A program made the position numbers and the translations under genes. From the NCBI RefSeq assembly GCF_001651855.1, contig NZ_LNQC01000056.1:62001-126000 (forward strand): a stretch of DNA of 64,000 nucleotides, written 5' to 3'. The notes below the pieces were generated by a model that did not search any database, had not been told where the DNA came from, and worked only from the letters and a program-made list of their open reading frames with translations. Below are positions 2,870-64,000 of the stretch, piece by piece (the first letter of the stretch is position 1; each line of letters starts with the position of its first letter). Source of the DNA: Sinorhizobium americanum. GTDB taxonomy: Bacteria > Pseudomonadota > Alphaproteobacteria > Rhizobiales > Rhizobiaceae.

Positions 2870-2945
2870 TGGCACGCCCAACGGGAATCGAACCCGTGTT
2901 TCCGCCGTGAAAGGGCGGCGTCCTAGACCGCTAGACGATGGGCGC
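2870..2945 (-). tRNA. tRNA-Glu (anticodon TTC), copy 2
   Basis: A 76-base cloverleaf on the minus strand with encoded CCA and anticodon TTC. It is nearly identical to copy 1, differing in the T loop (TTCGATT here, TTCGAGT in copy 1). It is the upstream member of the pair. Confidence 0.95.
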
Positions 2946-3040
2946 CCAAGACGAAGTGGCTTATAGAGAGCACTTCGGATTCCCGCAAGCGGCAAATCTC
3001 ACTTTTTCTCAAAAATTTACATCGCGGTGGCAGCCATTCC

Positions 3041-4366
3041 TCAGCCGTTGCGACGGCGGCAGCGCCAATTCCAATCGCGCTGCCGGCCGATGTCGATATG
3101 CACGGATTCGGTGTGGCAATAGGTGCCGACGCCGCCGCGGCCGGGCAGGCTTCTGAGATATTCGGCGAGATCCCACTTGCTGACGCCTTTGACCTGGATG
3201 TCAGCCGCTTCGCAGCGCGTGTGAAGCGATTGGCGTTTCCGGTTGACCTTGATCGGCCGAAGCCCCGAGGTGACCATCACCTTTTGACCGTAATGCCGCT
3301 CGACGCTCTTCAGCATCTGGAGAAGCGCCGGCTTGAAGCAGCCGGTTTCGACGCTCTCCGTCTGCAGGATGAGGCCGCTTGGCGCCAGACGGGCGAGACC
3401 GGAGAGATTGGCAACCTCGACCGGCGCGTCGTCCTCTTCACCCGCGTGGTCGGCATGGTCCATGTTGAACAGCGGATTGAGCTTGACGCCGGGAAGCGCG
3501 GTATAGGCGAGCGATGCGACCTGAGGTTCAGCCGCGTTCGCGGCAGTGATCGTCCGCTTCTCGGCGGCGCCGACGTTGCTCTCGCCGCTCATCCGCAGCT
3601 TCGGCTTGCGTTTGGCGGCAAAGAGACTTGCGAGCGTCCAGCTCTTGCCCGTGCGCTGCTGGTCCTTCCCGTCGTCCTCGGGGGAGGTGGGCTGAGTGGC
3701 GGCCGCCACGGGCGGCGTCACCTGTCCGGCGGATGCGACTTCAACCGCCTGTAGAGGACCGGATGTTTGATCGCGGCGCGCCGCCTGCGCGCTCGTGGGC
3801 AAGGGGACGGCGGCGGGAAGATCTGCAGCGCTGGCAGTGCTTTCCGTATCGGGCTGGGCTTTTGCCGGAATTGCGTTGCTCGCGCCTTCCTGGTCCGGCA
3901 AGACAGGCGCTGCCGCCGGCTGAGCGCCGGTGAAGAGACTGTTGTTCGTCGCATTGACGCCGGGCTGGGCATCGCCGCCCGATGTTTCCGAGGTTTGGGC
4001 GGCGCTTGCAGGCGCGGTCCCCGCGGCGGGCGACTGCCGGTAAATGCTCGACGCGGTGGCATTGAGGCCGGTGCTTTGCATCGTCAGGCCCCGGCGCAGG
4101 GCGGCTGAATCCGCCTGGGCGGCCGGATCGTCTGTTTGCTGTTGAGCGCCGACGCCGGATGCGGCGGCCTGGTCATCTGGGCGACCGTCTTCCGCGTTCG
4201 GTGTCGTCATGCTCGCTGGAGCTGCGGCTTGCGGCGATTCGACCGAATTGGCGCCCTCGCTCTCCGCAACCGCCGAGACGCAACCGGCGAGCGTAAGGAG
4301 TGATACGGAGAACGCCGCGGCGCGTCCGATCGAAAGGAGCGCGCGTTTTGAATCCAGCTGTTGCAA
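3041..4366 (-). CDS. Lipoprotein with C-terminal M15-type (YcbK/DUF882-like) peptidase domain
   Basis: A protein of about 441 residues. Its N-terminal hydrophobic stretch ends in a lipobox, LAGC, around residues 26-29, so it is likely a lipoprotein. Residues 30-320 are low-complexity and rich in Ala, Pro, Ser, Thr and Gln, probably a disordered linker. The last ~110 residues resemble the YcbK/M15_3 peptidoglycan peptidases: SGLRP, then SLHTRCEAADI (HxxxxAxD zinc motif) and ESVHIDIG (second His). Such domains cleave cell-wall peptides. Whether this one does so is inferred from family membership. The start is a TTG with a weak ribosome binding site, so the exact N terminus is uncertain. Confidence 0.75.
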   Translation of the reverse strand: MQQLDSKRALLSIGRAAAFSVSLLTLAGCVSAVAESEGANSVESPQAAAPASMTTPNAEDGRPDDQAAASGVGAQQQTDDPAAQADSAALRRGLTMQSTGLNATASSIYRQSPAAGTAPASAAQTSETSGGDAQPGVNATNNSLFTGAQPAAAPVLPDQEGASNAIPAKAQPDTESTASAADLPAAVPLPTSAQAARRDQTSGPLQAVEVASAGQVTPPVAAATQPTSPEDDGKDQQRTGKSWTLASLFAAKRKPKLRMSGESNVGAAEKRTITAANAAEPQVASLAYTALPGVKLNPLFNMDHADHAGEEDDAPVEVANLSGLARLAPSGLILQTESVETGCFKPALLQMLKSVERHYGQKVMVTSGLRPIKVNRKRQSLHTRCEAADIQVKGVSKWDLAEYLRSLPGRGGVGTYCHTESVHIDIGRQRDWNWRCRRRNG

Positions 4367-9009: not shown

Positions 9010-10035
9010 ATGGTCCGCATGAAATTTGACATTATGCGCATGGCTGCAACCATTGAAAAGACCGTTCCGATCGAGGTGATCGTGGTGGTCCTGCCCGAAT
9101 CCTCGATCATGTCGCTCGCCTCGGTGCTCGACCCGATGCGGGCAGCAAATCGCGTCGCCGGCCGGGCCGTCTTTCGCTGGCGCCTGCTCTCGGCCGATGG
9201 ACAGGCCGTGAAGTTGACCTGCGACATCCCGATTCCCGTCGACGGCCGGTTCTCGCTGCCGCTTGCCGGCGACCTTCTCCTCGTCATCGGCGGCTTCAAC
9301 CTCGACCGGCACGTCGGCAAGCGATTTCTCGCCGCCCTGCAGGAGTGCGCCCGTCATTTCGACATCGTGGCCGGCATCGAATCGGGTTGCTGGCTGCTTG
9401 GCCGATCGGGACTGCTCAACGAGCGCAAGGCGACCGCCCATTGGGAAGAGCTCGAAGACTTCAGCCAAGCGTTTCCCGCTCTGACGGTGATCGGCGACCG
9501 TTTCGTGACGGACGGCAAATACTGGACCTCGGGCGGCGCGTCTCCGACCTTCGACATGATGCTGCACCTGATCACCGAGCGGCTTGGCCCGGCCCTGGCT
9601 CTCGATGTCGCGAGCATCTTCGTCTACGACCAGATGCACAGCCCGACCGATATTCAGCCCTTCGTCTCACTCGGCCGCATCGAAGCGCGCGATCCCGAGC
9701 TTGCCGGTGCGATAAGGCTGATGGAGCGCACGCTGGAACGGCCGATGACGGTGGCGGCCCTGGCGCGGCGGCTCGCCATTTCGCAGCGCAAGCTCGAATT
9801 GCTTTTTGCAAGGGGCCTGTCGATCAGCCCTGGCGCCTATTATCTGCGCCTGAGGTTGCAGGTCGCCCATCGACTCGTCCGCGACTCCGGCGTTCCGATG
9901 CGCGATATCGCGCTGCGCTGCGGCTTCGACAGCCTGTCGGCCTTCTCGCGCGCCTATCGGCGGGAATACGGGGCGAGCCCATTGAAGATGCGTGGCGCCA
10001 ACCGCCCGGCGAGCGGTCGAGCAGAAAGCGGCTAG
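9010..10035 (+). CDS. GlxA-family transcriptional regulator (DJ-1/PfpI-like domain plus AraC HTH)
   Basis: A protein of up to 341 residues. Residues ~20-200 form a class I glutamine-amidotransferase-like sensor domain (VVVLPESSIMSLASVLDP; the pseudo-nucleophile elbow GIESGCWLLGRSGLL). Residues ~235-330 are a paired AraC helix-turn-helix (MTVAALARRLAISQRKLELLF and DIALRCGFDSLSAFSRAYRR). Such proteins often activate amino-acid or betaine catabolism, but the ligand is unknown and no target operon is adjacent. None of the possible starts (9010, 9019, 9034, 9040) has a clear ribosome binding site, and a TTGACA at 9005 may be a -35 box. The true start could be the later ATG. Confidence 0.85.
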   Translation: MVRMKFDIMRMAATIEKTVPIEVIVVVLPESSIMSLASVLDPMRAANRVAGRAVFRWRLLSADGQAVKLTCDIPIPVDGRFSLPLAGDLLLVIGGFNLDRHVGKRFLAALQECARHFDIVAGIESGCWLLGRSGLLNERKATAHWEELEDFSQAFPALTVIGDRFVTDGKYWTSGGASPTFDMMLHLITERLGPALALDVASIFVYDQMHSPTDIQPFVSLGRIEARDPELAGAIRLMERTLERPMTVAALARRLAISQRKLELLFARGLSISPGAYYLRLRLQVAHRLVRDSGVPMRDIALRCGFDSLSAFSRAYRREYGASPLKMRGANRPASGRAESG

Positions 10036-10334
10036 TTTCGGGCGTGCGGGCCGCCGGATCCGGAGAGGGCGCAGGCCTCTTCGAACTCCTTGACTGTTTC
10101 CGGCGTATTGTCCTCGGGCAGTACCGCGTCGGCAACTTCCTCGACTGTCGCCTCGCCCTCGTAAACAAAGGACTGGATGTAATAGGCGATTTCGCCCTTC
10201 CATACCTTGCGACCGTCAATCTGCTTGCAGGCAACCGCCGTCTCGAAATCGGTCTGCAGATCATCCACGCTGGCCGGGGCGGAAGCGCCACCGGAAGGTG
10301 CCACGAGCGAGGCAATCAGCAAGGCTGTGAACAT
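10032..10334 (-). CDS. Small exported hypothetical protein
   Basis: A 100-residue protein with a short signal-like leader (MFTALLIASLVAPSGGASA). A globular remainder has two Cys (VACKQIDG and EEACALSG) and the segment VWKGEIAYYIQSFVYEGE. GGAGG lies nine bases before the ATG, and this decides the start. It converges on the GlxA-type regulator gene with a four-base overlap of the two 3' ends. I do not recognise the family. Confidence 0.7.
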   Translation of the reverse strand: MFTALLIASLVAPSGGASAPASVDDLQTDFETAVACKQIDGRKVWKGEIAYYIQSFVYEGEATVEEVADAVLPEDNTPETVKEFEEACALSGSGGPHARN

Positions 10335-10560
10335 GGCGGCAGGCCTCCGGATGGGTCGACGAGGAAACTGCCGGTTCGTTTCCTCGATCTCACTTGGTAG
10401 AGGGCGAATCTGCTCCGAACGAAAGAGGAATTTTTGCGCTGATGATTTTTGTTGGGCGATCGATGTGTATAAGCCACAGTCCCCCTCGACGGCATCAAAC
10501 TCACCGCGGGCGCGCTGAAGGAGGAGCCCCTCCCTCGATTGAGTGAAGGGCTCCGGGTCG

Positions 10561-12316: not shown

Positions 12317-12392
12317 GTGGTGAGCGCGCAGGGATTCGAACCCTGGACCTACTGATTAAAAGTCAGTTGCTCTACCGGCTGAGCTACGCGCT
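12317..12392 (-). tRNA. tRNA-Lys (anticodon TTT)
   Basis: A 76-base cloverleaf on the minus strand with encoded CCA. Acceptor arms are GAGCGCG and CGCGCTC. The anticodon arm CTGAC-TTTTAAT gives TTT, and the T loop is TTCGAAT. Confidence 0.95.
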
Positions 12393-12588
12393 CCCAGGCC
12401 CGGCCTTTAAGCCCGGCGGAAGTGGGCGGACATATGCACGCGAGATTCGCGCGGGTCAACCGAAAAATTGCGCAGGACCAGGATTATAGCCGACGACGCG
12501 GTGCGGCAAAATGATCGCCGAAAGGTGATTGGTGTCGCCGTATACATGCGGGTAAGAAAACCACCAGCCGAGTGCCGGAGTTCCGAAT

Positions 12589-13335
12589 TTGTCGATTGCC
12601 GATGTCTCCATCTGGACCGCCGTTCTTGCCGGCGCCCTGTCCTTCCTTTCGCCCTGCGTCCTGCCGCTCGTCCCGCCCTATCTCTGCTACATGGCCGGCG
12701 TCTCGGTCGATCAGTTCCGCGGCGGCGATGGCGCGACGGTCGGGAACACGCGACGGGCGGTCCTGTCGGCGGCATTGTTCTTCACGCTCGGCTTTGCGAC
12801 AGTCTTCGTGGCGCTCGGGGCAGGGGCGTCGTCGATCGGCCTCCTGCTCAGGCAATATATCGATCTCCTGTCGCGCATTGGCGGCATCATCATCATCGTC
12901 ATGGGGCTGCATTTCCTCGGGGTCTTGCGCATCGGGCTGCTTGCCCGCGAGGCGCGCTTTCACGGCGGCGGCAAGCCGGCGACGCTGTCGGGAGCCTATA
13001 TCATGGGGCTCGCCTTCGCTTTCGGCTGGACGCCCTGCATCGGCCCGGTGCTCGGCACCATCCTCGGTGTCGCCGCAGCGCGTGAAACCGTCGGCGACGG
13101 GGCGATGCTGCTCGCCATCTATTCGCTCGGACTTGCCGTGCCGTTCTGGATCGCCGCCGGCTTTTCCGGCGCCTTCATGCGCTTCCTCATGCGTTTCCGC
13201 CGGCACCTCGGCCTCGTTGAGAAGCTGATGGGCGCGCTTCTCGTCCTCGCCGGCCTTGCCTTCCTGTTCGGCTTCATCAGCTCTGTTGCGATCTGGTTCC
13301 AGCAGACCTTTCCGATCCTGTCGCAAATCGGCTAA
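12589..13335 (+). CDS. ccdA: Cytochrome c biogenesis protein CcdA
   Basis: A 248-residue polytopic inner membrane protein with six predicted helices. It passes electrons from cytoplasmic thioredoxin to periplasmic thiol oxidoreductases used in cytochrome c maturation. The redox Cys pair is visible in SFLSPCVLPLVPP (helix 1) and GWTPCIGPVLG (helix 4). The start is a TTG preceded by CGGAG ten bases upstream; no better ATG exists near the conserved N terminus. The AEC transporter gene follows 29 bases later, possibly co-transcribed. Confidence 0.9.
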   Translation: MSIADVSIWTAVLAGALSFLSPCVLPLVPPYLCYMAGVSVDQFRGGDGATVGNTRRAVLSAALFFTLGFATVFVALGAGASSIGLLLRQYIDLLSRIGGIIIIVMGLHFLGVLRIGLLAREARFHGGGKPATLSGAYIMGLAFAFGWTPCIGPVLGTILGVAAARETVGDGAMLLAIYSLGLAVPFWIAAGFSGAFMRFLMRFRRHLGLVEKLMGALLVLAGLAFLFGFISSVAIWFQQTFPILSQIG

Positions 13336-55475: not shown

Positions 55476-55560
55476 GCGGACGTGGCGAAACTGGTAGACG
55501 CAAGGGACTTAAAATCCCTCGCCGCAAGGCTTACGGGTTCGATCCCCGTCGTCCGCACCA
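55476..55560 (+). tRNA. tRNA-Leu (anticodon TAA)
   Basis: An 85-base class II tRNA with long variable arm and encoded CCA. Acceptor arms are GCGGACG and CGTCCGC. The anticodon arm AGGGA-CTTAAAA-TCCCT gives TAA. Phage-type genes begin directly after it, so its 3' end is a plausible attachment site. Confidence 0.95.
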
Positions 55561-55777
55561 AATTGAAATCATTAGACAATTAGCGAAGAGGCGAGGGCGG
55601 CGATACGATCGACGAAGATGGCTTGGCCCTACCTGCGGCCCTACCGGCCCCGGCTTGGCCCACTTAACTATTTTTTCTGCTATCCTTCCGCGTGCCTCGG
55701 TTCGAGGCCGGGGCGTCACGGATCGATCGGGAGAAACGATCCACGGACGCCCTTTGAGTTTTATCGGGAGCACGCCC

Positions 55778-56002
55778 ATGGATGACCTTGCCGAGATCGC
55801 CAAAATGATTCGCCGCCTCGAAGAGACCGGCATGTCGCGCCGAGCCATTGCCGAGGGTGCGAACGTCGGCGCATCCGCTATCAATCCGAGTCTCAGGCTG
55901 GTCAACTCGCTCAAGCGATTTTGCAGGGAATGCCTCGATGCCGATCCGCCTCGGCGGGACGAGCGCTTCGCCCCCGGTTGCCAGCCACGGGCGGGACGCT
56001 GA
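55778..56002 (+). CDS. Small HTH-like protein
   Basis: A 74-residue protein whose first 40 residues read like a helix-turn-helix (IRRLEETGMSRRAIAEGANVGASAIN). The rest is basic and Cys-containing with no family match, which may reflect a shifted or decayed 3' part. GGGAG lies seven bases before the ATG. It may be a regulator of the island. Confidence 0.5.
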   Translation: MDDLAEIAKMIRRLEETGMSRRAIAEGANVGASAINPSLRLVNSLKRFCRECLDADPPRRDERFAPGCQPRAGR

Positions 56003-56053
56003 AACCTCTCCCGAATTCGGGAATGGTCCGAAATGTTTGCGGACTCCGCAAAC

Positions 56054-58416
56054 TTACGACGGCACCCGTCTTAGCAGTCCGCCCGGTCTCGACTCCTTCA
56101 CCAGAACCGACTGCACCGCCGCATCGATCCGCTGCCCGAGCGTCCGCGCGTCGTCGTTGTTAGCGGTCACCATGCCCGTTTGGACATCGACCCGGACGTC
56201 GCCGAGATAGACATTCCCCGAGTTCACCGAGCGCGCCGACGAGGCCCGCCCCATCGCCCTCGGAATGACGACCTCACCCTTCTGCAGGATCGCCGGGAAT
56301 TCGTCCGGCATCAGCCCGCCATGCAGCCTCGGCGCATTGGCAAAGACCGCAGGCGAGACCCGGCGCTTCGGTGCAGTCGATCGGACGTCACCGCCGCCGT
56401 GGTAGAGGCCGCCCGGTACATCCGGGAACAGTCCGCCACCGCCGCCGAAGAGACCGCCGAAGACGCCGCCGAGGGCGTTCTTCGCGAACATCGCTTCGAT
56501 TGCCATGTTGACCATGCCGTCGATGATCCGGTCGAGCACGTTGCGGAAGGCTTCGCCAGCATCGACACCATTGCGAAGGTCGTTGACGAGGCCAGAGACC
56601 GCCGTCTGCGCGATCCGGGCGTAAGCCTGCCCCATCTGCTCGGCCTGCCGCTTGTGCTCTTCTGCCGCCTGCGCTGCGTCTCTCTGCCGGTCCGCAAGGC
56701 CGGTCGCCGCCAGACCCGCCCGCGCCATCGCCTCGGCCTGTTGGTCGATCTTCGCCCGCAATGCGTCGTTGACGGTCAGGCCCTGCTGCTGCGCTGCGTC
56801 GAGAAGTTCACTCGCGATGCGCTGCCGTTCGATGGCGAGCGTCTGCTGATCGACAGAGAGAGTCGCATCCGCCCGGACGGCATTTTCCCGCTGCTGCTGC
56901 TCGAGCCGCTTCTGATTGGCGGCATAGAGCGTGTCGAACTGCGTCTTTTCCGCCTCGGCGCGCCGCCTAGTCGCTTCCTCGCGGGCCAGTTCGATGTGCC
57001 AGTCCTCGTTCTTGAGCCGGAAGACGAGGCCGTAAGCCTCGGCATTGGCATGCGCCCATCGCTTCACCGCCTCGCTTTCGAAGGACAGGTCGGCCGCTTC
57101 GCCCCGGACATGCGGCGCATTCATCGACGGTCGGGCAACCCACTTCGCCGCCGCCGCCTCGGACCCGTATTTCCTGACCGCGTCGTTCCACAGTTGCATC
57201 TGCCGCTCAATCGTCCGCCGTCCGGACGTGATGGTGATCTGTCCAGCCTGCGAGGCAGCTGCCTCGAGGAAGGCGCGTAGCCGCTCCTGAAAGTCCGGGG
57301 CCATGTCGGCGACATGCGACAGCGGCTTGTCGGCCGCGAGATACCGCCGCAGCCCGGAACTGTACGCCTTCGCCGATTCCTCGCCCGCCCGTTCCATTTC
57401 GGTCTGCGACGGGAAGAACTTGCCGCCCGCCGCCGTGATCGGTGCCAGCGTGCCGAGTTCCGGCAGGTTGAGGTCGCCGAAAATCTGCCGGACCTTCAAC
57501 ACGTCCTCGCCGGCCCCCCGGACCGCCGGTCGCAGCTTCGTCTCGATCGCCTTGGCGAGGTCCTCGGTCGCGGCAATGCCGAGATTGCGCAGGTCGTCGA
57601 ACACCCGCTGGAATTCCTGCAGTTCCTTCGTGCCTTCGCGGCCCGCCTCGATTTCCGCCCGCCACGCCTTGTAGGCGTCACGCAATTTCGCCGCGTGCGC
57701 CCGCGCCGCTTCGTTGCCGCGGTCCAGTTCCTTGAAAAAGGCGCTTCACGTCCTCCTCGATGTCGGGAACGACCTCCTGCACCGGTTTCAGCGCCTCGGC
57801 GACGAGGCGGTTTCGGTCGGCGATCTTCTGTGCCGTGCGGTCGGCCTCTTCGAGCTTGTCGATATAGGCGTCGATGCCGGGCAAGGTATCGCCCCAGCGC
57901 TGTCGGAATCGCCTTCAACTCCTCGGCATGCTGCTTGAGCGCCTTGGACGCTTCCTCGGCACCCTCCTCGGTTTCGGTGAAATAGCTCCGCGCGGCGTCG
58001 AAGAGCGCGCCGAAGCCGATGATCGCCGCCGTGACGCCGATTGCCTGCGGAGACAGGACGGAAGCGAGCGCCCCGCCGATGCCCCTGAGAAGCCCGCCCG
58101 AGCGCCCGAGTTCCTTGATCGCATCGCCCGCTTGGCTCGCCTGCTGAAACGCGACGGTGAAGGGCGATTGCCCGGACAGAAGTTGCGTCGCCACGTCCTG
58201 GAACTGGAAGGACAGATTGCGGGTGGCGTTCTGCATCGACGCGCTGATCTGCCGCGCCGTCCGGTCGACCGTCGGCCCGACCTTGCGGAAATTGTCGTTA
58301 ACGTGGTCGGTGGTGCGCTTGACCGTAAGGTCGGCATCCTTCATCGCCCGCTTCAAGGCGGCGATGTCGGCCGAGATTGAGAGGATGAGTTTGGTATCTT
58401 CTGTCGCGGCTGCCAT
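56054..58416 (-). pseudogene. Phage tail tape measure protein with embedded M15 peptidase domain, two frameshifts
   Basis: The first ~175 codons (LILSISADIAALKRAMKDADLTVKRTTDHV, a lambda-type tape measure start, with a hydrophobic stretch SVLSPQAIGVTAAIIGFGALF) lie in one frame, a ~50-codon piece in a second, and the remaining ~560 in a third. Removing one G from the run at 57892-57895 and one T from the run at 57735-57739 gives exactly 787 codons. Inside the long part is an M15 zinc peptidase domain (ITSGRRTIERQMQLW, HVRGEAADLSF, EDWHIEL). The end has Gly-rich and DVRVDVQTG sequences. It would set tail length and cut peptidoglycan. Confidence 0.82.
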
Positions 58417-58506
58417 GTTTCACCTTTCGAAAAAGGCGGCCCGGCATCGCCAGAAACCGGACCGCCCCGGCAGATGCGCCGCCCACCCGATTAAAGGCGG
58501 CGCAAT

Positions 58507-58722
58507 TCAGTTCGTCCTAAATGCCGAAGGTCCGAATAGCTCGATCAGCTTCTCGATCATCTCGTCGCGGCTCAATCGCTCGGCGTCCATGGACTCGCCT
58601 GCCGGGACGCAATGGAAGCCGGTTCCATCGGGCATGATGACGACGGCGAAGAGATCGCCGCCGAAAAAGCGCTTGCTGTCGCGTGCGAGGGCGTCGGCAA
58701 GGTCTTCGGGTTGGTGTCTCAT
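58507..58722 (-). CDS. Small phage-type hypothetical protein
   Basis: A 71-residue acidic protein between the coiled-coil gene and the tape measure gene. Its ATG overlaps the preceding stop (ATGA). By position it could be a tail assembly or connector protein, but no motif supports that. It has a beta-like middle (GDLFAVVIMPDGTGFHCVPAG) and a helical end (RDEMIEKLIELFG). Confidence 0.65.
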   Translation of the reverse strand: MRHQPEDLADALARDSKRFFGGDLFAVVIMPDGTGFHCVPAGESMDAERLSRDEMIEKLIELFGPSAFRTN

Positions 58723-59204
58723 CTTACAGCCCTCAAACCCTTGCCGCGCTCGTCGGCAAGTTCCTGCCGCAGCTTTTCGACCTCGAGCGCCAGCCGTTCA
58801 TAGTCGCGCTTGACGGCGGCCAGTTGAGTGCGCCGCTCGCTGGCCTCGGACTGCAACTGCCGCAGCATTGCGCGAGCGTCCTTGAGAAAGTCGCTGAAAT
58901 CGCTCTGCGCATCGCGGAAAAGTTCGTCCACTTCGCCGCGCAAATCGCCGATGCCAAGCTCCGTTGCTTCGGTGAGTTCCGCGATCCGGGCGTCTGTGCT
59001 TTCCCGCGCTTTAGTGAACAGGCGTCTGCTCGCCTCGACGACATCCGCAACATGCACTTCGAGCGCCGCAAGCCGCTGCTCGAGTCCGGCTTCACGCTTG
59101 CGGGCGGCCGCCTCGCTCTGTCGCCGCGCGGCGCATTCGTCGAAGGTCTCATATTCGCCATTGGGACCGGTCGGCGACCGGTAGCTGCCCGGCTCGGCTA
59201 CCAT
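58719..59204 (-). CDS. Coiled-coil phage protein, possible structural or scaffold role
   Basis: A 161-residue protein that is almost all alpha-helix with heptad-like charge patterns (AARKREAGLEQRLAALEVHVADVVEASRRLF, then LRQLQSEASERRTQLAAVKRDYERLALEVEKLRQEL). GGAGGG lies seven bases before the ATG. It overlaps both neighbours by a few bases, so capsid, coiled-coil and the next small gene are one translation unit. A scaffold or tail-fibre-like role is only a guess from position. Confidence 0.65.
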   Translation of the reverse strand: MVAEPGSYRSPTGPNGEYETFDECAARRQSEAAARKREAGLEQRLAALEVHVADVVEASRRLFTKARESTDARIAELTEATELGIGDLRGEVDELFRDAQSDFSDFLKDARAMLRQLQSEASERRTQLAAVKRDYERLALEVEKLRQELADERGKGLRAVR

Positions 59205-60298
59205 GCGACGCCCTCCATCCACGCAGAGCGGCCCGCCGGGACAGCCCAGGCGGTCTCAATGATGGCGCGCACGGCAAGCATGTCGGTCTGCCAAAGCGAA
59301 CGAACCGGGGCTGCGACGGTCGGCGGCGTGCCAGCCGTGCCGATCGCCAGAGGCGTGGTGTCTTCATGCAGGACCGCATCCTTCGAGGCATCGACGACGG
59401 CACCGCCGGAACCGGAGATGAATGAAGGTCCATCGACGGCAAGGACGACTCCCCGCGGCACGGCCGGCGTATCGACGATCGGATAGGAGAAGGACGGCAC
59501 GAAGGCGAGGCTAATAGCCTGTTGCGGGTTGACGACGAAAACCGGCGACGAGCCGCCGCCTGCAACAATTTCACCGACGAGTTTTTGCAAATCGACGCGC
59601 ATCGCGACAAGCGGGTCGGTCGCGGTGGAAGCGGCGACCGCGGCGACGTTGTAGCGCAGGCCCGGCGGACGCAGCGCGCTTCCCGGTTGGTCATCGACGA
59701 GCGCACCGTCGATGATCGAAGCGAGATCGGCCCTCAAGGCGACGTCCAGCAGCGCCTCGATGTCCGTGACCGCGCGTTTCCGCAGTTCGGCGCTGAAGAC
59801 GCTGACCGCCGCCGCCTTTCGCGGCCATAGGCTGATAGTGCCGACGCTCAAATCATCGACGGGGATCGGCGAACCCTCGGCAATCCAGCCGCCGACCTCG
59901 GCAAGGGGTGGACGATACGGAATCCGCAACGTGCCAATCCCTGCGAGCGAGATGCTCCTGCCAAGCGCGGCCAAGCGCGACAGCGCCAGCGGCGCGGTGC
60001 CTTCGGCCAGGAATTCACCGACGTCGACCGGCGCAAGTTCGGTCGCCCAGTTCGGCGTCGTGATCATGGCGGGACCCGTCGCGGCGCGCTCTGCATAGCG
60101 TTCGCGCCAAACGTCCTCATAGGTAACGCCAGGACCTGTCGCCAATGCTCTGAGAACCGCGTGACGGACGAAGCGGTCGCGACCGGAAAGGCCGGACTTC
60201 GTGCCGCGTTTCAGATCGCGCAATGCACGCGAGGTATGGACAGCAAGCTCCTTCGCCTCAGTCGCCTGCCGCGCCACTCGTTCGAGCGTGTAAGTCAT
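59198..60298 (-). CDS. HK97-type phage major capsid protein
   Basis: A 366-residue protein with the HK97 capsid pattern. An N-terminal helical delta-like region is followed by IPYRPPLAEVGGWIAEGSPIPVDDLSVGTISLWPRKAAAVSVFSAEL, the classic core segment. Later come RADLASIIDGALVDD, PVFVVNPQQAISLAF, RGVVLAVDGPSF and VVDASKDAVLHED. AGGAGG lies eight bases before the ATG, which decides the start; the frame is open 37 codons further without support. It is the first gene of a leftward unit. No prohead protease or portal gene precedes it. Confidence 0.85.
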   Translation of the reverse strand: MTYTLERVARQATEAKELAVHTSRALRDLKRGTKSGLSGRDRFVRHAVLRALATGPGVTYEDVWRERYAERAATGPAMITTPNWATELAPVDVGEFLAEGTAPLALSRLAALGRSISLAGIGTLRIPYRPPLAEVGGWIAEGSPIPVDDLSVGTISLWPRKAAAVSVFSAELRKRAVTDIEALLDVALRADLASIIDGALVDDQPGSALRPPGLRYNVAAVAASTATDPLVAMRVDLQKLVGEIVAGGGSSPVFVVNPQQAISLAFVPSFSYPIVDTPAVPRGVVLAVDGPSFISGSGGAVVDASKDAVLHEDTTPLAIGTAGTPPTVAAPVRSLWQTDMLAVRAIIETAWAVPAGRSAWMEGVAW

Positions 60299-60494
60299 GA
60301 AAATACCTCCTCGCCAGTGGAAGGCGGGAGGTTCGAAAAACCTACTTTGCTGATGCCGATATTCCAGCGCTTCCACGGCAAGTCCCATGATAGCGAGCGG
60401 CTGTTTCATGGTTGAAACGGCGGCAAATTTATTTCGTCCGCAACGTTGAGATTAAGTGTTGACCCTCATCATCAGCGGCATAACCTCAACACTT
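60299..60494. promoter_or_regulatory. Divergent control region with nested inverted repeats
   Basis: It lies between the leftward capsid unit and a rightward small gene. TAAGTGTTGA (60453-60462) and TCAACACTTA (60486-60495) are perfect inverted copies. GTTGAGATTA (60445-60454) pairs with TAACCTCAAC (60481-60490) with one mismatch. The right arm ends on the A of the ATG at 60495, so a bound repressor would block that gene. Confidence 0.6.
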
Positions 60495-60845
60495 ATGAGC
60501 AAGGGTCATGGCAATGTCATGCGGCTTGTGCTTGCCGCTATCACGGACGAATGGCAACCCGTCGTCTATATCGCCGCAGCCATCCACGGCGAACCTGACG
60601 TCCGCGTTAATCGATCAGCCGAGGAGTCAACCCGCCGGGCATGCAAGCGACTGGCCGTTCAAGGGGTGGTCGAACTTGGCTATCAGATTATCGGCGGCGA
60701 CACTGTTTTCGACCGCCCGTCCAACTTTTTCCGAAAGCAATGGCTTGTCGTTCGCCGGACCGGTGACGGTGATCCCCCAGAGAATGCCGAGGATGTGCGG
60801 CGGCGAGGGCTTGAGAGGCTACGTCGCTCTGTTCAGGACGGTTAG
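60495..60845 (+). CDS. Small winged-helix-like protein
   Basis: A 116-residue protein. The middle reads like a winged helix: MRLVLAAITDEWQPVVYIAAAIHG, then SAEESTRRACKRLAVQGVVELGYQII and VVRRTG. It is probably a DNA-binding regulator of the island. The start MSKGHGN at 60495 abuts the inverted repeats; a frame open from 60456 would run through them. It is divergent from the capsid gene. Confidence 0.6.
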   Translation: MSKGHGNVMRLVLAAITDEWQPVVYIAAAIHGEPDVRVNRSAEESTRRACKRLAVQGVVELGYQIIGGDTVFDRPSNFFRKQWLVVRRTGDGDPPENAEDVRRRGLERLRRSVQDG

Positions 60846-60868
60846 GAAGCATTGGCGCGGAAACATCT

Positions 60869-61051
60869 TCAAGTTTCCCGGAGAAACTTGATTTTGCTTT
60901 CTCGCTTGCTGCGCCGAGCCTCGCGAATGTCGTCGATGGCGGTTGCGATCAGGGCAGGATCGCCGTCCTCGAGGGCGGCTTCGAGATAGCCGGCCTGTTG
61001 CTCGGTCCGAATGAAGTCCTGAATGTCGAAGCGAATTGTTTCCAGTGCCAT
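60869..61051 (-). pseudogene. Truncated addiction-module antidote (HigA/YddM-like) gene
   Basis: A 60-codon frame. Its first ~45 residues match the start of a common antidote family (MALETIRFDIQDFIRTEQQAGYLEAALEDGDPALIATAIDDI). It then ends in an unrelated basic tail instead of the helix-turn-helix that follows in intact members of about 100 residues. No matching toxin gene lies upstream. It looks like a remnant. Confidence 0.55.
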
Positions 61052-61113
61052 GCGGCGACGCTACACGATAGCGGCGGGTTGGGCGAGGTTCGAGGCGGGT
61101 TGCAGAGGCCGAA

Positions 61114-61155
61114 AAAGGGCCGTTTTGTATAGACAAAGGGCCATTTTATTTTTCC
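61114..61155. repeat. Two 21-bp direct repeats
   Basis: AAAGGGCCGTTTTGTAT at 61114 and AAAGGGCCATTTTATTT at 61135 repeat with a 21-base period, two turns of the helix. It could be a protein-binding site. Confidence 0.55.
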
Positions 61156-61252
61156 CGAAAACGCGCGCTCGACTGCGCCGCCGGTCCCCGAGGGGACGTC
61201 GAGGATTGGCGACCCCCCGCCCCCTGCCTGCCGCGTGCCCCCGATGCAATCC

Positions 61253-61378
61253 CCGATAGGTAGATGCCGACCGTGGCCTGCTTTTACCTACCAGAGGTAA
61301 GCAAATACGCAACTTTGGTGCGTATCTACCTACCAGAGGTAGGCAGATGCGACCGAGGTGTCGCTTTTACCAACCGTC
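61253..61378. repeat. Three iteron-like 42-bp repeats with palindromic cores
   Basis: Two perfect copies of TACCTACCAGAGGTA (TACCT/AGGTA arms) lie at 61285-61299 and 61327-61341, exactly 42 bases apart. Flanking sequence (AGGTAGATGC, AGGTAAGCAAATAC, AGGTAGGCAGATGC; GCTTTTACCTACCAG, GCTTTTACCAACCG) shows that three degenerate units repeat in tandem. Between the palindromes lies a further inverted repeat, ATACGC...GCGTAT (61305-61325). The layout resembles replication-origin iterons or multiple operators. Confidence 0.7.
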
Positions 61379-61447
61379 GATGGTTTTACCGGGCGCGGCG
61401 AGGTTGCGATGAAGGGGAACGGAACATTTAGTCGCGCTGAACATTCA

Positions 61448-61476
61448 TTGACTGTTAAGGTAGACCTATATAAAAG
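61448..61476 (+). promoter_or_regulatory. Probable sigma-70 promoter of the DUF4258/HTH pair
   Basis: TTGACT at 61448-61453 is followed after 15-17 bases by TATAAA/TAAAAG within CTATATAAAAG. The start codon at 61509 is about 33 bases further. Confidence 0.6.
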
Positions 61477-61508
61477 ATAGGTGTTCCTCCACGATAGAAG
61501 GCTTCGAA

Positions 61509-61832
61509 GTGAGCAACATCATTCCGATGAAGGCACCGCAACCGAAGAAGCTATCTCGGCAGGAATTCAAGAACCACGTGCTGAAACTGCTCGAAACTGG
61601 ACAGGTGAAGGTAACCGCGCATTTGCGACGGGACCACCCCGAACGTGCGATTTCGTTTCGTCAAATTGAAATGTGCCTTGAGAAGGGCACCGTGCAAACG
61701 GACCCTTTCTTGAACGCCTATGGAAACTGGCAAGGCGAAATCTACCGTCACATGGCCGGGCAAGAGCTAATCGTTGTAGCCGCATTAGAATGGGAAGAAC
61801 AGGTCATAGTCATTACGGCTTTTGAACCTTGA
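61509..61832 (+). CDS. DUF4258 domain protein (possible toxin of a TA-like pair)
   Basis: A 107-residue protein. Residues ~25-105 match the DUF4258 pattern: VKVTAHLRRDHPERAISFRQIEMCLEKGTV, then NWQGEIYRHMAGQELIVVAALEW and VIVITAFEP. Families of this type include RNase-like toxin folds, but activity here is unproven. The start is a GTG with AGAAGG nine bases upstream; an ATG six codons later is possible. An HTH gene follows after 12 bases. Confidence 0.72.
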   Translation: MSNIIPMKAPQPKKLSRQEFKNHVLKLLETGQVKVTAHLRRDHPERAISFRQIEMCLEKGTVQTDPFLNAYGNWQGEIYRHMAGQELIVVAALEWEEQVIVITAFEP

Positions 61833-61844
61833 AGGGCGATGGTG

Positions 61845-62300
61845 ATGAGCTATCACTACACAGACTCCGGGTTGGATAACATTTGGCTAGAAGACGGATA
61901 CACCGTCGAGGAGCATCCAAATTACGGCCAACTCATATCAGTTAAGAACGTCCGTGGCCTTCATGAGGCCATCGGCAGATGGCTGGTAGGGCAACCACGC
62001 ACACTCAACGGCGCGGAATTCCGTTTCCTGCGTCTGGAACTGGACCTTTCGCAGAAGTCGCTTGGCGTCATCCTCGGCGTCACCGAACAGGCCGTCGCCA
62101 AATGGGAGAAGGCGAAGGACAAGGCTGTTGCCAACAGGTCGGCAGAACGCCTCTTGAGGCTGGCGTATATCAACTATCTGGATGGCAAGCCGGAATTCTC
62201 GGCGGTCATCGACCGGATCACGCAACTCGACGCGGAGATCGCGGAACATGAATTGCGGCTCACCAGAGAGCAAAATGGCTGGCACAAGATAGCCGCATAA
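61845..62300 (+). CDS. HTH protein (possible antitoxin/regulator partner)
   Basis: A 151-residue protein. An N-terminal small domain (YHYTDSGLDNIWLEDGYTVEE) is followed by a Cro/C1-type helix-turn-helix, RFLRLELDLSQKSLGVILGVTEQAVAKWEKAK (about residues 60-92). A helical tail ends the protein. This layout is seen in MqsA/HigA-like antitoxins and in regulators paired with DUF4258 genes. The ATG at 61845 has GAAGGG at better spacing than the ATG two codons before. A terminator follows directly. Confidence 0.78.
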   Translation: MSYHYTDSGLDNIWLEDGYTVEEHPNYGQLISVKNVRGLHEAIGRWLVGQPRTLNGAEFRFLRLELDLSQKSLGVILGVTEQAVAKWEKAKDKAVANRSAERLLRLAYINYLDGKPEFSAVIDRITQLDAEIAEHELRLTREQNGWHKIAA

Positions 62301-62305
62301 GTGAG

Positions 62306-62337
62306 AAAAACCCCGAACACAATTCGGGGTTTCTTCT
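62306..62337 (+). terminator. Rho-independent terminator of the DUF4258/HTH pair
   Basis: Arms AAACCCCGAA and TTCGGGGTTT around a five-base loop, then CTTCTTTT. It begins six bases after the stop codon. Confidence 0.9.
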
Positions 62338-62416
62338 TTTGCGCTTTTCCTTTTTTCTTCTCGAAGCGCGCGACGCCTGCCCCAAAGGGCAAGCGCGCTT
62401 ATTACGTAGTAATAGG

Positions 62417-62501
62417 GGCGGGCGAACACACCCCTTAAATGATTGAAATCGCAGCGAAATCGCCAAGGCTGGAACAGGCCGGAAAAAGGCGGGCGAACAC
62501 A
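62417..62501. repeat. Two 14-bp direct repeats
   Basis: GGCGGGCGAACACA occurs at 62417-62430 and again at 62488-62501, 71 bases apart, just past the 3' end of the RepA-like gene. ATTAC-GTA-GTAAT, a small dyad, lies at 62401-62413. The role is unknown. Confidence 0.6.
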
Positions 62502-62504
62502 GTG

Positions 62505-63560
62505 CTAGAAGTTGCATTTCACAACCTCCAATCTGTATTGCCTTTTCGACGGCGGACCATGCGCAACATTGGCAATCCGCCCGTCATTCAACAGCGCATA
62601 CATGGCCGCCTTCAGCGATTTCAGCGACACGTTTTCGTTCTGCGGATCGCCGTAAAAAACCTTCGGCGCGAAGCTGTTGGATGAGGGACTAGCGGAAACA
62701 AAAAGGTTCTGGCTGTTGTGGATTTGCAGGAGTCTCAGGAACACCCGCTCGGCCTTGTCCGCCCTGCCGATGTCCGATCCCGCGCGTTCCTGCCTGTCGG
62801 TGCAGCGATAGCAGCCCATGTCCCACTTGACGTTGACGACGAGGCCCTGCGGACCGTAATTCGGCTTTTGGCTGACGAGTATCCGCCGCCCATCGTCCGG
62901 GCCATCTGCCTCGGCATCGTCCGGCTTCCGCATGTCGACTTGATTGCGGATGGTGTTCGTCCAGCCGGTCGAACCGGAATTGCCGGTCTTTTGGTTGAGG
63001 CCCGCGAGCGACGGATGCGCGAGCACAATCAGCGTCGTGCCGTATTTCTTGGCGAGCGCCCGGAGATAGTTGCTGACCTTCGTCGCTGCATTGCGGTTTA
63101 TTTCGTCGATGTCGGCGAGTTGCGCGCGGTTGTCGAGCACGACGAGTTCCGGTTTAAGATGTCCGATGGTGTTTTCCAGCAGCCGAAATAGCAGCGTCTT
63201 CTTGACGTAGCTCCTTTGCCCGACGAATAGCGCCTTGTCCTCAACATCGGACAGGTCGCAGATTTCGAGATTGTAGAGCAGCCGCGCCTCGAACATTTCC
63301 GCTGCGGCGATGTCGAGGACTCGTTGGTGGTTGACGTCTAGTTCGTCCTCTGCGCTGACATAGAGCACCTTGCCACGGCGGCGGACGGGACGCCCGAGCC
63401 AATGGGTCTCGGGATAGTCCCTTTCGGGAAGCGCGACGGCGCAGGCGAGTTGCAGCGAGGACAGGCTTTTGCCGATGGCCCCCGCGCCGGTCAGGTAACT
63501 GAGATCGTCGGCAAGGAACAATCCATGCCCGTCGAGGAACTCGATCGGCTTCAATTTCAT
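62505..63560 (-). CDS. RepA-like AAA/RecA-fold ATPase (replication protein)
   Basis: A 351-residue protein of the RepA/AAA_25 RecA-like hexameric helicase group. Walker A is TGAGAIGKSLSSLQLACAVA (residues ~25-45). The Walker B-like strand is PELVVLDNRAQLAD (about 137-150). Motif VLAHPS and GSTGWTNTIRNQVDMRKP match RepA helicases of plasmids and phages. The C-terminal ~80 residues look like a winged helix (LKSLKAAMYALLNDGRIANV). GAGG lies nine bases before the ATG. It probably drives replication of the excised element. The 216 bases between it and the integrase hold no gene. Confidence 0.83.
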   Translation of the reverse strand: MKLKPIEFLDGHGLFLADDLSYLTGAGAIGKSLSSLQLACAVALPERDYPETHWLGRPVRRRGKVLYVSAEDELDVNHQRVLDIAAAEMFEARLLYNLEICDLSDVEDKALFVGQRSYVKKTLLFRLLENTIGHLKPELVVLDNRAQLADIDEINRNAATKVSNYLRALAKKYGTTLIVLAHPSLAGLNQKTGNSGSTGWTNTIRNQVDMRKPDDAEADGPDDGRRILVSQKPNYGPQGLVVNVKWDMGCYRCTDRQERAGSDIGRADKAERVFLRLLQIHNSQNLFVSASPSSNSFAPKVFYGDPQNENVSLKSLKAAMYALLNDGRIANVAHGPPSKRQYRLEVVKCNF

Positions 63561-63776
63561 GGGTCATCCTCACCGTCGATCTCTGTTGCTACCATCGAAT
63601 AGTAGATGATCACGTTTGATGGATGAAGAGTGTAGAAACTTGACGTGTTCGTTAGCGTGACGATGAAACTATGTATAAAGTGCAGATTTGCATCTATTTG
63701 ACGCTAAGTAACTCAAACAAAAGAAAGGAAAGGGGGCGACGCGCCCCCTTGTGTTCATTGGATTAGGCTTTTCCCG

Positions 63777-64000
63777 TCAACCGTTCCGCGAAAGTTCCTT
63801 CACATCTGCTGTAGGTTTGTTGAAGACGTTGATAATCCCGGCTGTCCGCTCGACGCCCTTGCGCGCGAGACTTTCGGAGCGCTTCACGTACCGCATCGCC
63901 ATCGCTGGCGTCTTCCAGCCGAAGGTCTGCATCAGTTCGGAGACGTTGGCACCGTTCACAGCGGCATGCGTCGCGCACGTTGATCGCAGCCGGTGAGGGG
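63777..64000 (-). CDS. Tyrosine integrase, C-terminal part, 5' end outside window
   Basis: The frame runs from the window edge to a stop at 63777. It contains the catalytic C terminus of a phage-type tyrosine recombinase: HRLRSTCATHA (His-x-x-Arg box), 17 residues, GWKTPAMAMRYVKRS with Trp at the third His/Trp position and the Tyr nucleophile. A helical tail then ends in FNKPTADVKELSRNG. It would integrate or excise the island. The N-terminal DNA-binding part is not in the window. Confidence 0.85.
   Translation of the reverse strand, partial: PHRLRSTCATHAAVNGANVSELMQTFGWKTPAMAMRYVKRSESLARKGVERTAGIINVFNKPTADVKELSRNG

Follow-up and report, generated by a model that had tools for sequence, protein, structure and literature searches.

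A PICI-like phage satellite candidate in Sinorhizobium americanum with its own capsid and tape-measure genes

A 64,000-nucleotide stretch of contig NZ_LNQC01000056.1 of Sinorhizobium americanum (the window, to which coordinates refer unless another locus is named) holds near its right end a compact group of phage-like genes that raises a simple question: is this a heavily reduced prophage, or a satellite that borrows packaging functions from a helper phage? A first-pass annotation of the sequence had left both options standing. Here the satellite-type element is favored, based on exact attachment (att) repeats, an empty insertion site, 23 comparable islands without packaging-gene matches, purifying selection, and a small terminase subunit (TerS) found alone in two islands. 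The element is probably a satellite resembling phage-inducible chromosomal islands (PICIs), with a capsid protein that would act like Ccm of SaPIbov5 and a subgroup of relatives that would also swap the tail ruler. Genomes and loci carry G and L numbers; the window genome is G000 and its locus (19 kb) L003.

Boundaries and core genes of the element

The left boundary lies in a tRNA-Leu(taa) gene (55476-55560), as the first-pass annotation had seen, and the right-hand repeat that it proposed to look for exists: the 55 bp of attL recur exactly at 65150-65204 (attR), 1.2 kb past the window end. With 9,644 bp from attL to attR, the element spans 55506-65204 (~9.6 kb). The integrase named earlier is present, and the extent is corrected, with the gene crossing the window edge and attR lying outside it. 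Comparison of the same tRNA-Leu locus in related genomes, also proposed at that stage, revealed an empty site in G008, where the tRNA is joined directly to the sequence that follows attR in G000 (identities to G000 of 91% for the left flank, 94% for the tRNA, and 94% for the right flank). The flank query matches 29 of 33 same-genus genomes. Over the 8 kb past attR, the open reading frames (ORFs) look chromosomal by eye and packaging profiles found no match. An integrase and specific att sites, both defining traits of PICIs, are therefore present in the window element.

One leftward unit (56054-60298) comprises genes for a capsid protein, a coiled-coil protein (CC), a 71-aa protein (SM71), and a tape-measure protein (TMP). 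ORFs together with Pfam and PHROG matches bear out this arrangement as first described. The reported lack of packaging genes within it also stands: terminase, portal, prohead protease, and tail-tube families had no match among ten window ORFs scanned, and profiles for protease, portal, and the large terminase subunit (TerL), built from local phages and run on all six-frame ORFs, had no match across L003 (19 kb) or in any of the 23 islands described below. Neither a packaging set in the 8 kb past attR nor confinement of the unit to this genome was found; the capsid unit recurs in other rhizobia, where a search had been advised.

The capsid protein matches PF05065 (E 2.3e-9) and the PHROG major head protein. 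Its ORF was called from 60409, but the start is better set at 60298, where an ATG is preceded by a GAGGAGG ribosome site. An AlphaFold model (mean pLDDT 69.5, ~90 across residues 231-330) retrieved HK97-fold capsids with Foldseek (best E 1.6e-13), HK97 itself (1ohg) standing at rank 6 with TM-scores of 0.47 (by query) and 0.65 (by target). Ahead of the capsid domain, the helical segment measures 106 residues from the likely start, as opposed to 209-236 in phage proteins; these lengths were worked out by hand for one island and for seven of nine phage proteins with protease and capsid domains both matched, and the domain ends vary slightly. The HK97 fold, the lack of a protease, and the shortened N-terminal segment together make this a Ccm-like capsid homolog of the PICI kind, with a putative size-changing role.

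Neither CC nor SM71 has a family match above curated cut-offs. CC, which we infer to be a candidate capsid assembly factor, has counterparts by a crude heuristic: a coiled-coil-like gene follows the capsid gene in the window, L018-L023, L026-L028, L148, L110-L112, and L098, and in 2 of 15 phages, and the same heuristic finds none in that place in L099-L107. SM71 sits where a chaperone could sit, which is its candidate role; no tail assembly chaperone (TAC) was recognized. Its structure model was set aside for low confidence (pLDDT 66). The SM71 profile matched 6 of 33 same-genus genomes, and across 394 Rhizobiaceae genomes, with the best 15 candidates per genome scored, it matched the window copy alone (1/394). 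At 8917-9755 of L109 (G012), CC and SM71 occur without a recognized capsid gene alongside, perhaps as a decayed island.

The TMP gene was correctly reported as present; the correction is that it falls into three frames in the window copy. Its domain matches are clear (TMP_2, E 3.4e-15; VanY, E 1.6e-7), and an intact relative aligns to its three frames in three consecutive pieces, so that the window copy is either broken or misassembled; the assembly consists of 82 contigs. TMP follows SM71 in 5 of the 23 islands: the broken window copy and L019, L021, L022, and L148, where it is intact at 740-802 aa. L019 and L021 are two copies in one genome (G007), and in L022 and L148, SM71 and TMP almost touch or overlap. 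The intact relatives keep the VanY residues SxHxxG..AD and WH(I/V)E, which we take to be the peptidase signature. At E 1e-20, the TMP profile hit 44 of 394 Rhizobiaceae genomes, with only G000 near the whole profile (in two pieces); the others are partial, and some match both ends but not the peptidase part. Viral contigs contributed 11 loci, of which only L147 (the same island as L021) and L148 are full length, and no further full-length copy appeared among the 394 family genomes or the viral contigs. Partial matches, including the TMP of phage 16-3 (27% over 70%), point to a phage origin of the island TMP. Separately, several M15 peptidases related to the TMP VanY domain occur in plasmid records H28-H37, in rhizobia and others, where the PLSDB table labels them as vanY glycopeptide resistance, probably an over-annotation.

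Table 1. Features of the element in window coordinates
Feature	Position	Strand	Basis
attL, final 55 bp of tRNA-Leu(taa)	55506..55560	+	repeat and empty-site comparison
Small helix-turn-helix (HTH)-like ORF adjoining attL	55778..56002	+	weak HTH matches in the related L021 ORF (13395-13643)
Tape-measure gene with VanY (M15) peptidase domain, three frames in window copy	56054..58416	-	Pfam, PHROG, intact relatives
SM71, conserved 71-aa protein between CC and tape measure	58507..58722	-	comparison with related islands
CC, coiled-coil protein gene directly after capsid gene	58719..59222	-	coiled-coil heuristic
HK97-fold major capsid protein, ~366 aa, no fused protease	59198..60298	-	Pfam, PHROG, structure model
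129-aa ORF, divergent from capsid gene, weakly conserved in L021	60456..60845	+	
p60, N-terminus HI1420-like (addiction-module antidote), match below curated cut-offs	60869..61051	-	
Candidate replication origin with three GCTTTTACCTACC-type repeats spaced ~42 bp	61280..61375	.	
DUF4258 protein, possible toxin of toxin-antitoxin-like pair	61509..61832	+	
HTH protein, MqsA-antitoxin-like, below NCBIfam cut-off	61839..62300	+	
RepA-like AAA_25 ATPase, predicted replication role	62505..63560	-	family match; 59% identical in L023
Tyrosine integrase, C-terminal part in window	63777..64000	-	full gene 63777-64991, 404 aa, beside attR

Related islands and their packaging genes

Twenty-three islands with wider context (11-25 kb) were compared: L003, L017/L018 (counted once), L019-L023, L026-L028, L099-L107, L110-L112, and L148. 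Places with a capsid match were called phage-type when the fetched locus held at least one of protease, portal, and TerL, and island-type when it held none. Within the genus, 11 of 33 genomes matched at 13 places, nine of them island-type (G000, three in G007, G015, G023, G026, G029, and G030) and four phage-type (G012, G021, G025, and G027). The family survey yielded 31 places in 25 of 394 genomes, 14 island-type and 17 phage-type, fetched partly by their short capsid frame. Island capsid ORFs measure 312-490 aa. Viral contigs added L147 and L148, and the plasmid collection gave matches in six records. Two of these were examined, Sinorhizobium sp. C101 and K101 (taxid now S. prairiense), where the relative is 73% identical; M103, Cupriavidus, and two Bradyrhizobium records were left aside.

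The islands share an insertion pattern. In 18 of 23, a perfect direct repeat 15 nt or longer overlaps a tRNA gene (for tRNA-Leu, Lys, Met, Thr, Ser, Gln, Pro, or Arg) in its 3' part, and the repeats lie 8,753-11,235 bp apart in 17 of these 18; the longer L105 (14,664 bp) contains transposase-like ORFs by eye. No such repeat was found in L099, L100, L102, or L103, and L019 is ambiguous because of tRNA-Glu paralogs. As a control, 1,800 random 60-nt stretches were drawn from the 18 loci with repeats, and 40 of them had such a repeat more than 6 kb away.

Phage relatives of the capsid present a different picture. Among the best 80 of 189 viral-contig relatives, all carry at least one packaging gene (protease in 76, portal in 75, TerL in 48), and the four without protease start at the contig start; as the collection was chosen for viral contigs, it may under-represent islands. 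In the 17 phage-type family places, several of which span only ~4 kb, protease was missed in L080 and L093, portal in L077 and L089, and TerL in L080 and L093. PHROG searches of 24 genomes detected TerL in 18 and portal in 18, with no portal in G000, G007, G015, G030, G026, or G061. G007 has weak TerL matches outside its islands. Within islands there was no PHROG match to TerL or portal, except for a prophage portal gene of G378 (L108) that an island splits into pieces at 1794-2774 and 12368-12772; this island holds an integrase gene (2888-4189), an HNH gene, and a capsid gene of 346 aa (9440-10480). Among the few proteins scanned for TerS, L027 and L112 encode this subunit without TerL.

Single-sequence searches with the window capsid returned 12 stretches of viral contigs and 126 of genome contigs, none confirmed, so alignments are needed to find relatives. 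Against phage records, the one match was Moraxella phage Mcat9 (22.7% over 53%). No report of these rhizobial islands was found in the open-access literature, a search outside which most subscription papers lie.

G007 also carries three sister islands (L019, L020, and L021), with the L021 capsid 96-98% identical to the other two. TMP is present in two of them; the third lacks it and has an SM71 of another type, which suggests module exchange.

Selection, capsid origin, and known satellites

Pairwise dN/dS values (Nei-Gojobori, with the higher dS values near saturation) range from 0.11 to 0.39 overall. Capsid pairs gave 0.18 (L019/L021), 0.17 (L020/L021), and 0.27 (window/L018); TMP pairs gave 0.11 (L019/L021) and 0.39 (L022/L021), with 0.33 and 0.36 for the window pieces. 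Values were 0.23-0.32 for CC, 0.20 for SM71 (window/L021; SM71 of L019 and L021 is identical), and 0.37 for RepA (window/L023). Judged by these substitution rates, the island genes are under purifying selection and are not neutral remnants.

In a 62-row capsid tree, 18 island capsids are near neighbors of phage capsids with a fused protease. A smaller group, placed elsewhere, consists of L107, L110-L112, and L098, and L106 pairs with the phage capsid L029. The L098 capsid was ruled out as a phage row, because it belongs to an island that sits in the portal gene of a prophage. The approximately unbiased (AU) test does not reject a single clade for the 18 main island capsids (p 0.249), nor does it prove one. 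A second tree omits rows ph_L093 and ph_L155, whose branches are very long.

Among known elements, the protease-fused HK97-type phages and prophages (L024, L025, L113-L116, and viral contigs) have a related capsid core; in 27 phage rows, the identity across the aligned part is 32-41%. Their fused frames are mostly ~630-830 aa with an S78 protease, and portal and often TerL lie nearby; phage-type loci L029, L080, L093, and L155 gave no protease match. To our knowledge, SaPIbov5, PmCI172, and EcCICFT073 carry neither TerL nor portal. Like the islands, SaPIbov5 (a cos-SaPI) and the PICIs PmCI172 and EcCICFT073 of Gram-negative hosts are described in passages of PMC5052747, PMC6893505, and PMC6092414 as integrative satellites with their own capsid homolog. 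In the parts of PMC5052747 and PMC6893505 that concern it, Ccm of SaPIbov5 is an HK97-fold homolog with a shorter helical N-terminal domain, and small heads require both Ccm and the helper capsid protein. The rhizobial islands differ in host group and in a capsid akin to the protease-fused lineage; the window group adds CC and SM71, and some islands add TMP.

A satellite-encoded TMP is a feature shared with the phage-inducible chromosomal island-like elements (PLEs) of Vibrio cholerae. According to portions of PMC12987554 (2026), PLE11, PLE1, and PLE4 replace the TMP of the helper with their own in chimeric tails, and the authors call PLEs the first family to do so. PLEs also encode a TAC, and PLE11 a hub protein as well; ICP1, their helper, has a tail of the contractile kind, and TcaP serves as the PLE capsid size switcher (PMC12409344, in part). 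In the islands, unlike in PLEs, TMP follows the element's own capsid gene. Capsid-forming PICIs (cf-PICIs) likewise have their own major capsid protein, and some carry putative tmp genes, as mentioned in the legend of Extended Data Fig. 10 of PMC12987554. They encode protease, portal, connectors, TerS, and TerL as well (PMC10690885, in part); in the window element and the 23 islands, profiles for protease, portal, and TerL gave no match. The islands are probably a variant of PICI-like satellites outside the cf-PICI definition, not a separate category. The new point is the combination of capsid and tape measure without portal or terminase.

Outside the leftward unit, the RepA-like ATPase, the integrase, and the toxin-antitoxin-like pair (DUF4258 and MqsA-like HTH) noted in the first pass are all present by family matches. 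PICIs also have a replication gene and origin of their own, for which the RepA-like ATPase and the three spaced repeats are candidates. They show phage-dependent induction and interference, and their genomes, packaged by the helper, measure about a third of the helper genome; the element here has 9,644 bp. An AlpA/Stl-type master regulator is a PICI feature; the regulator-like genes of the window copy are the MqsA-like HTH, the small HTH-like ORF, and p60. The last is 77-90% identical in L017, L019, L020, and L021, whose capsids share 26-76% with the window capsid, and going by this conservation it is a possible regulator under strong constraint. P4-like satellites carry Psu, Delta, and Sid genes; general scans of the window proteins returned none of these family names, and no search was aimed at P4 profiles.

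Explanations and biological meaning

If the element is a PICI-like satellite, a helper phage would induce it and the satellite would replicate itself. Its capsid protein, with the shortened, delta-like helical segment, would co-assemble with or replace the helper shell, perhaps aided by CC, to give small heads fitting ~10 kb, while portal, terminase, and tail tube would come from the helper. Where an island has an intact TMP gene, the satellite TMP would replace that of the helper, set tail length, and bring its own peptidoglycan hydrolase, so that head shell and tail ruler would both be satellite-made. Unless the frame breaks in the window TMP are errors of assembly, the window copy is probably no longer capable of the tail step and would perform the head step at best.

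Several observations weigh against this explanation. Neither a helper nor induction, excision, or particles were observed. The window copy has a broken TMP, and TAC and hub genes like those of PLE11 were not recognized in the islands. G000 has no resident HK97-type portal, and its two TerL matches, on other contigs, are weak (best E 3.3e-12). Because a short capsid frame was among the grounds for selecting the family-survey islands, their lack of packaging genes partly reflects that selection; the independent signs are size and repeats. The repeat comparison covers islands and random stretches and leaves out phage-type loci. The free capsid tree places phages inside the main group of islands; it therefore does not establish one origin, and there may have been several. 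The TMP profile is also without a match in 18 of 23 islands, and other genes occupy its place in at least L017 and L023. TMP is consequently not essential to the island family.

In these two islands, the replacing genes lie on the opposite strand, which would suit an anti-phage island whose capsid and TMP poison head and tail assembly as dominant-negative proteins, with mobility secondary. Interference with tail assembly is reportedly the topic of an existing paper (PMC11364771). Defense-like cargo exists, namely a ShosA-like protein in L110 (6609-7367) and an OLD/AriA-like ATPase in L100 (11690-12988), and part of PMC5052747 reports that Ccm strongly blocks its helper. Such a role is compatible with the satellite explanation but unlikely as the main function, given that TMP is full length with conserved peptidase signatures and, in L022 and L148, almost abuts SM71 or overlaps it.

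A reduced prophage, that is, a once-complete phage decaying after loss of packaging and most tail genes, would fit the broken TMP, the phage origin of capsid and TMP, and the missing portal in the window genome. The set of terminase, portal, and tail genes that marks a complete prophage was not found in the element. This account nevertheless seems quite improbable: islands without detected packaging genes recur at different tRNA genes within a narrow size range, their genes are under purifying selection, and TMP is intact in four of them. Recurrence of gene set and size is not expected from repeated random decay. An encapsulin-like host compartment, with an incidental link to mobile elements, draws on the HK97 fold common to phage capsids and encapsulins and is scarcely credible in view of the PF05065 match, the placement among phage capsids, the TMP neighbor, and the att-bounded islands.

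The PICI-like satellite thus remains the preferred explanation. We also put forward, tentatively and with more doubt than conviction, that a Rhizobiaceae satellite lineage reprograms both particle ends through one four-gene operon of capsid, CC, SM71, and TMP genes, providing a small-head shell as well as a ruler and hydrolase for tail and entry, and borrowing tail tube, portal, and terminase. A change of head size by satellites is already known, and a tail-ruler swap was first reported for the Vibrio PLEs in 2026 (PMC12987554, as far as its consulted parts state). Rhizobial PICI-like islands can hold both kinds of gene in one unit, in which portal and terminase were not found. If the proposal is true, this division of labor would predict which helper proteins need compatibility, allow the idea of chimeric tails to be tested in an unrelated system, and account for the orphan capsid and tape-measure genes of rhizobia.

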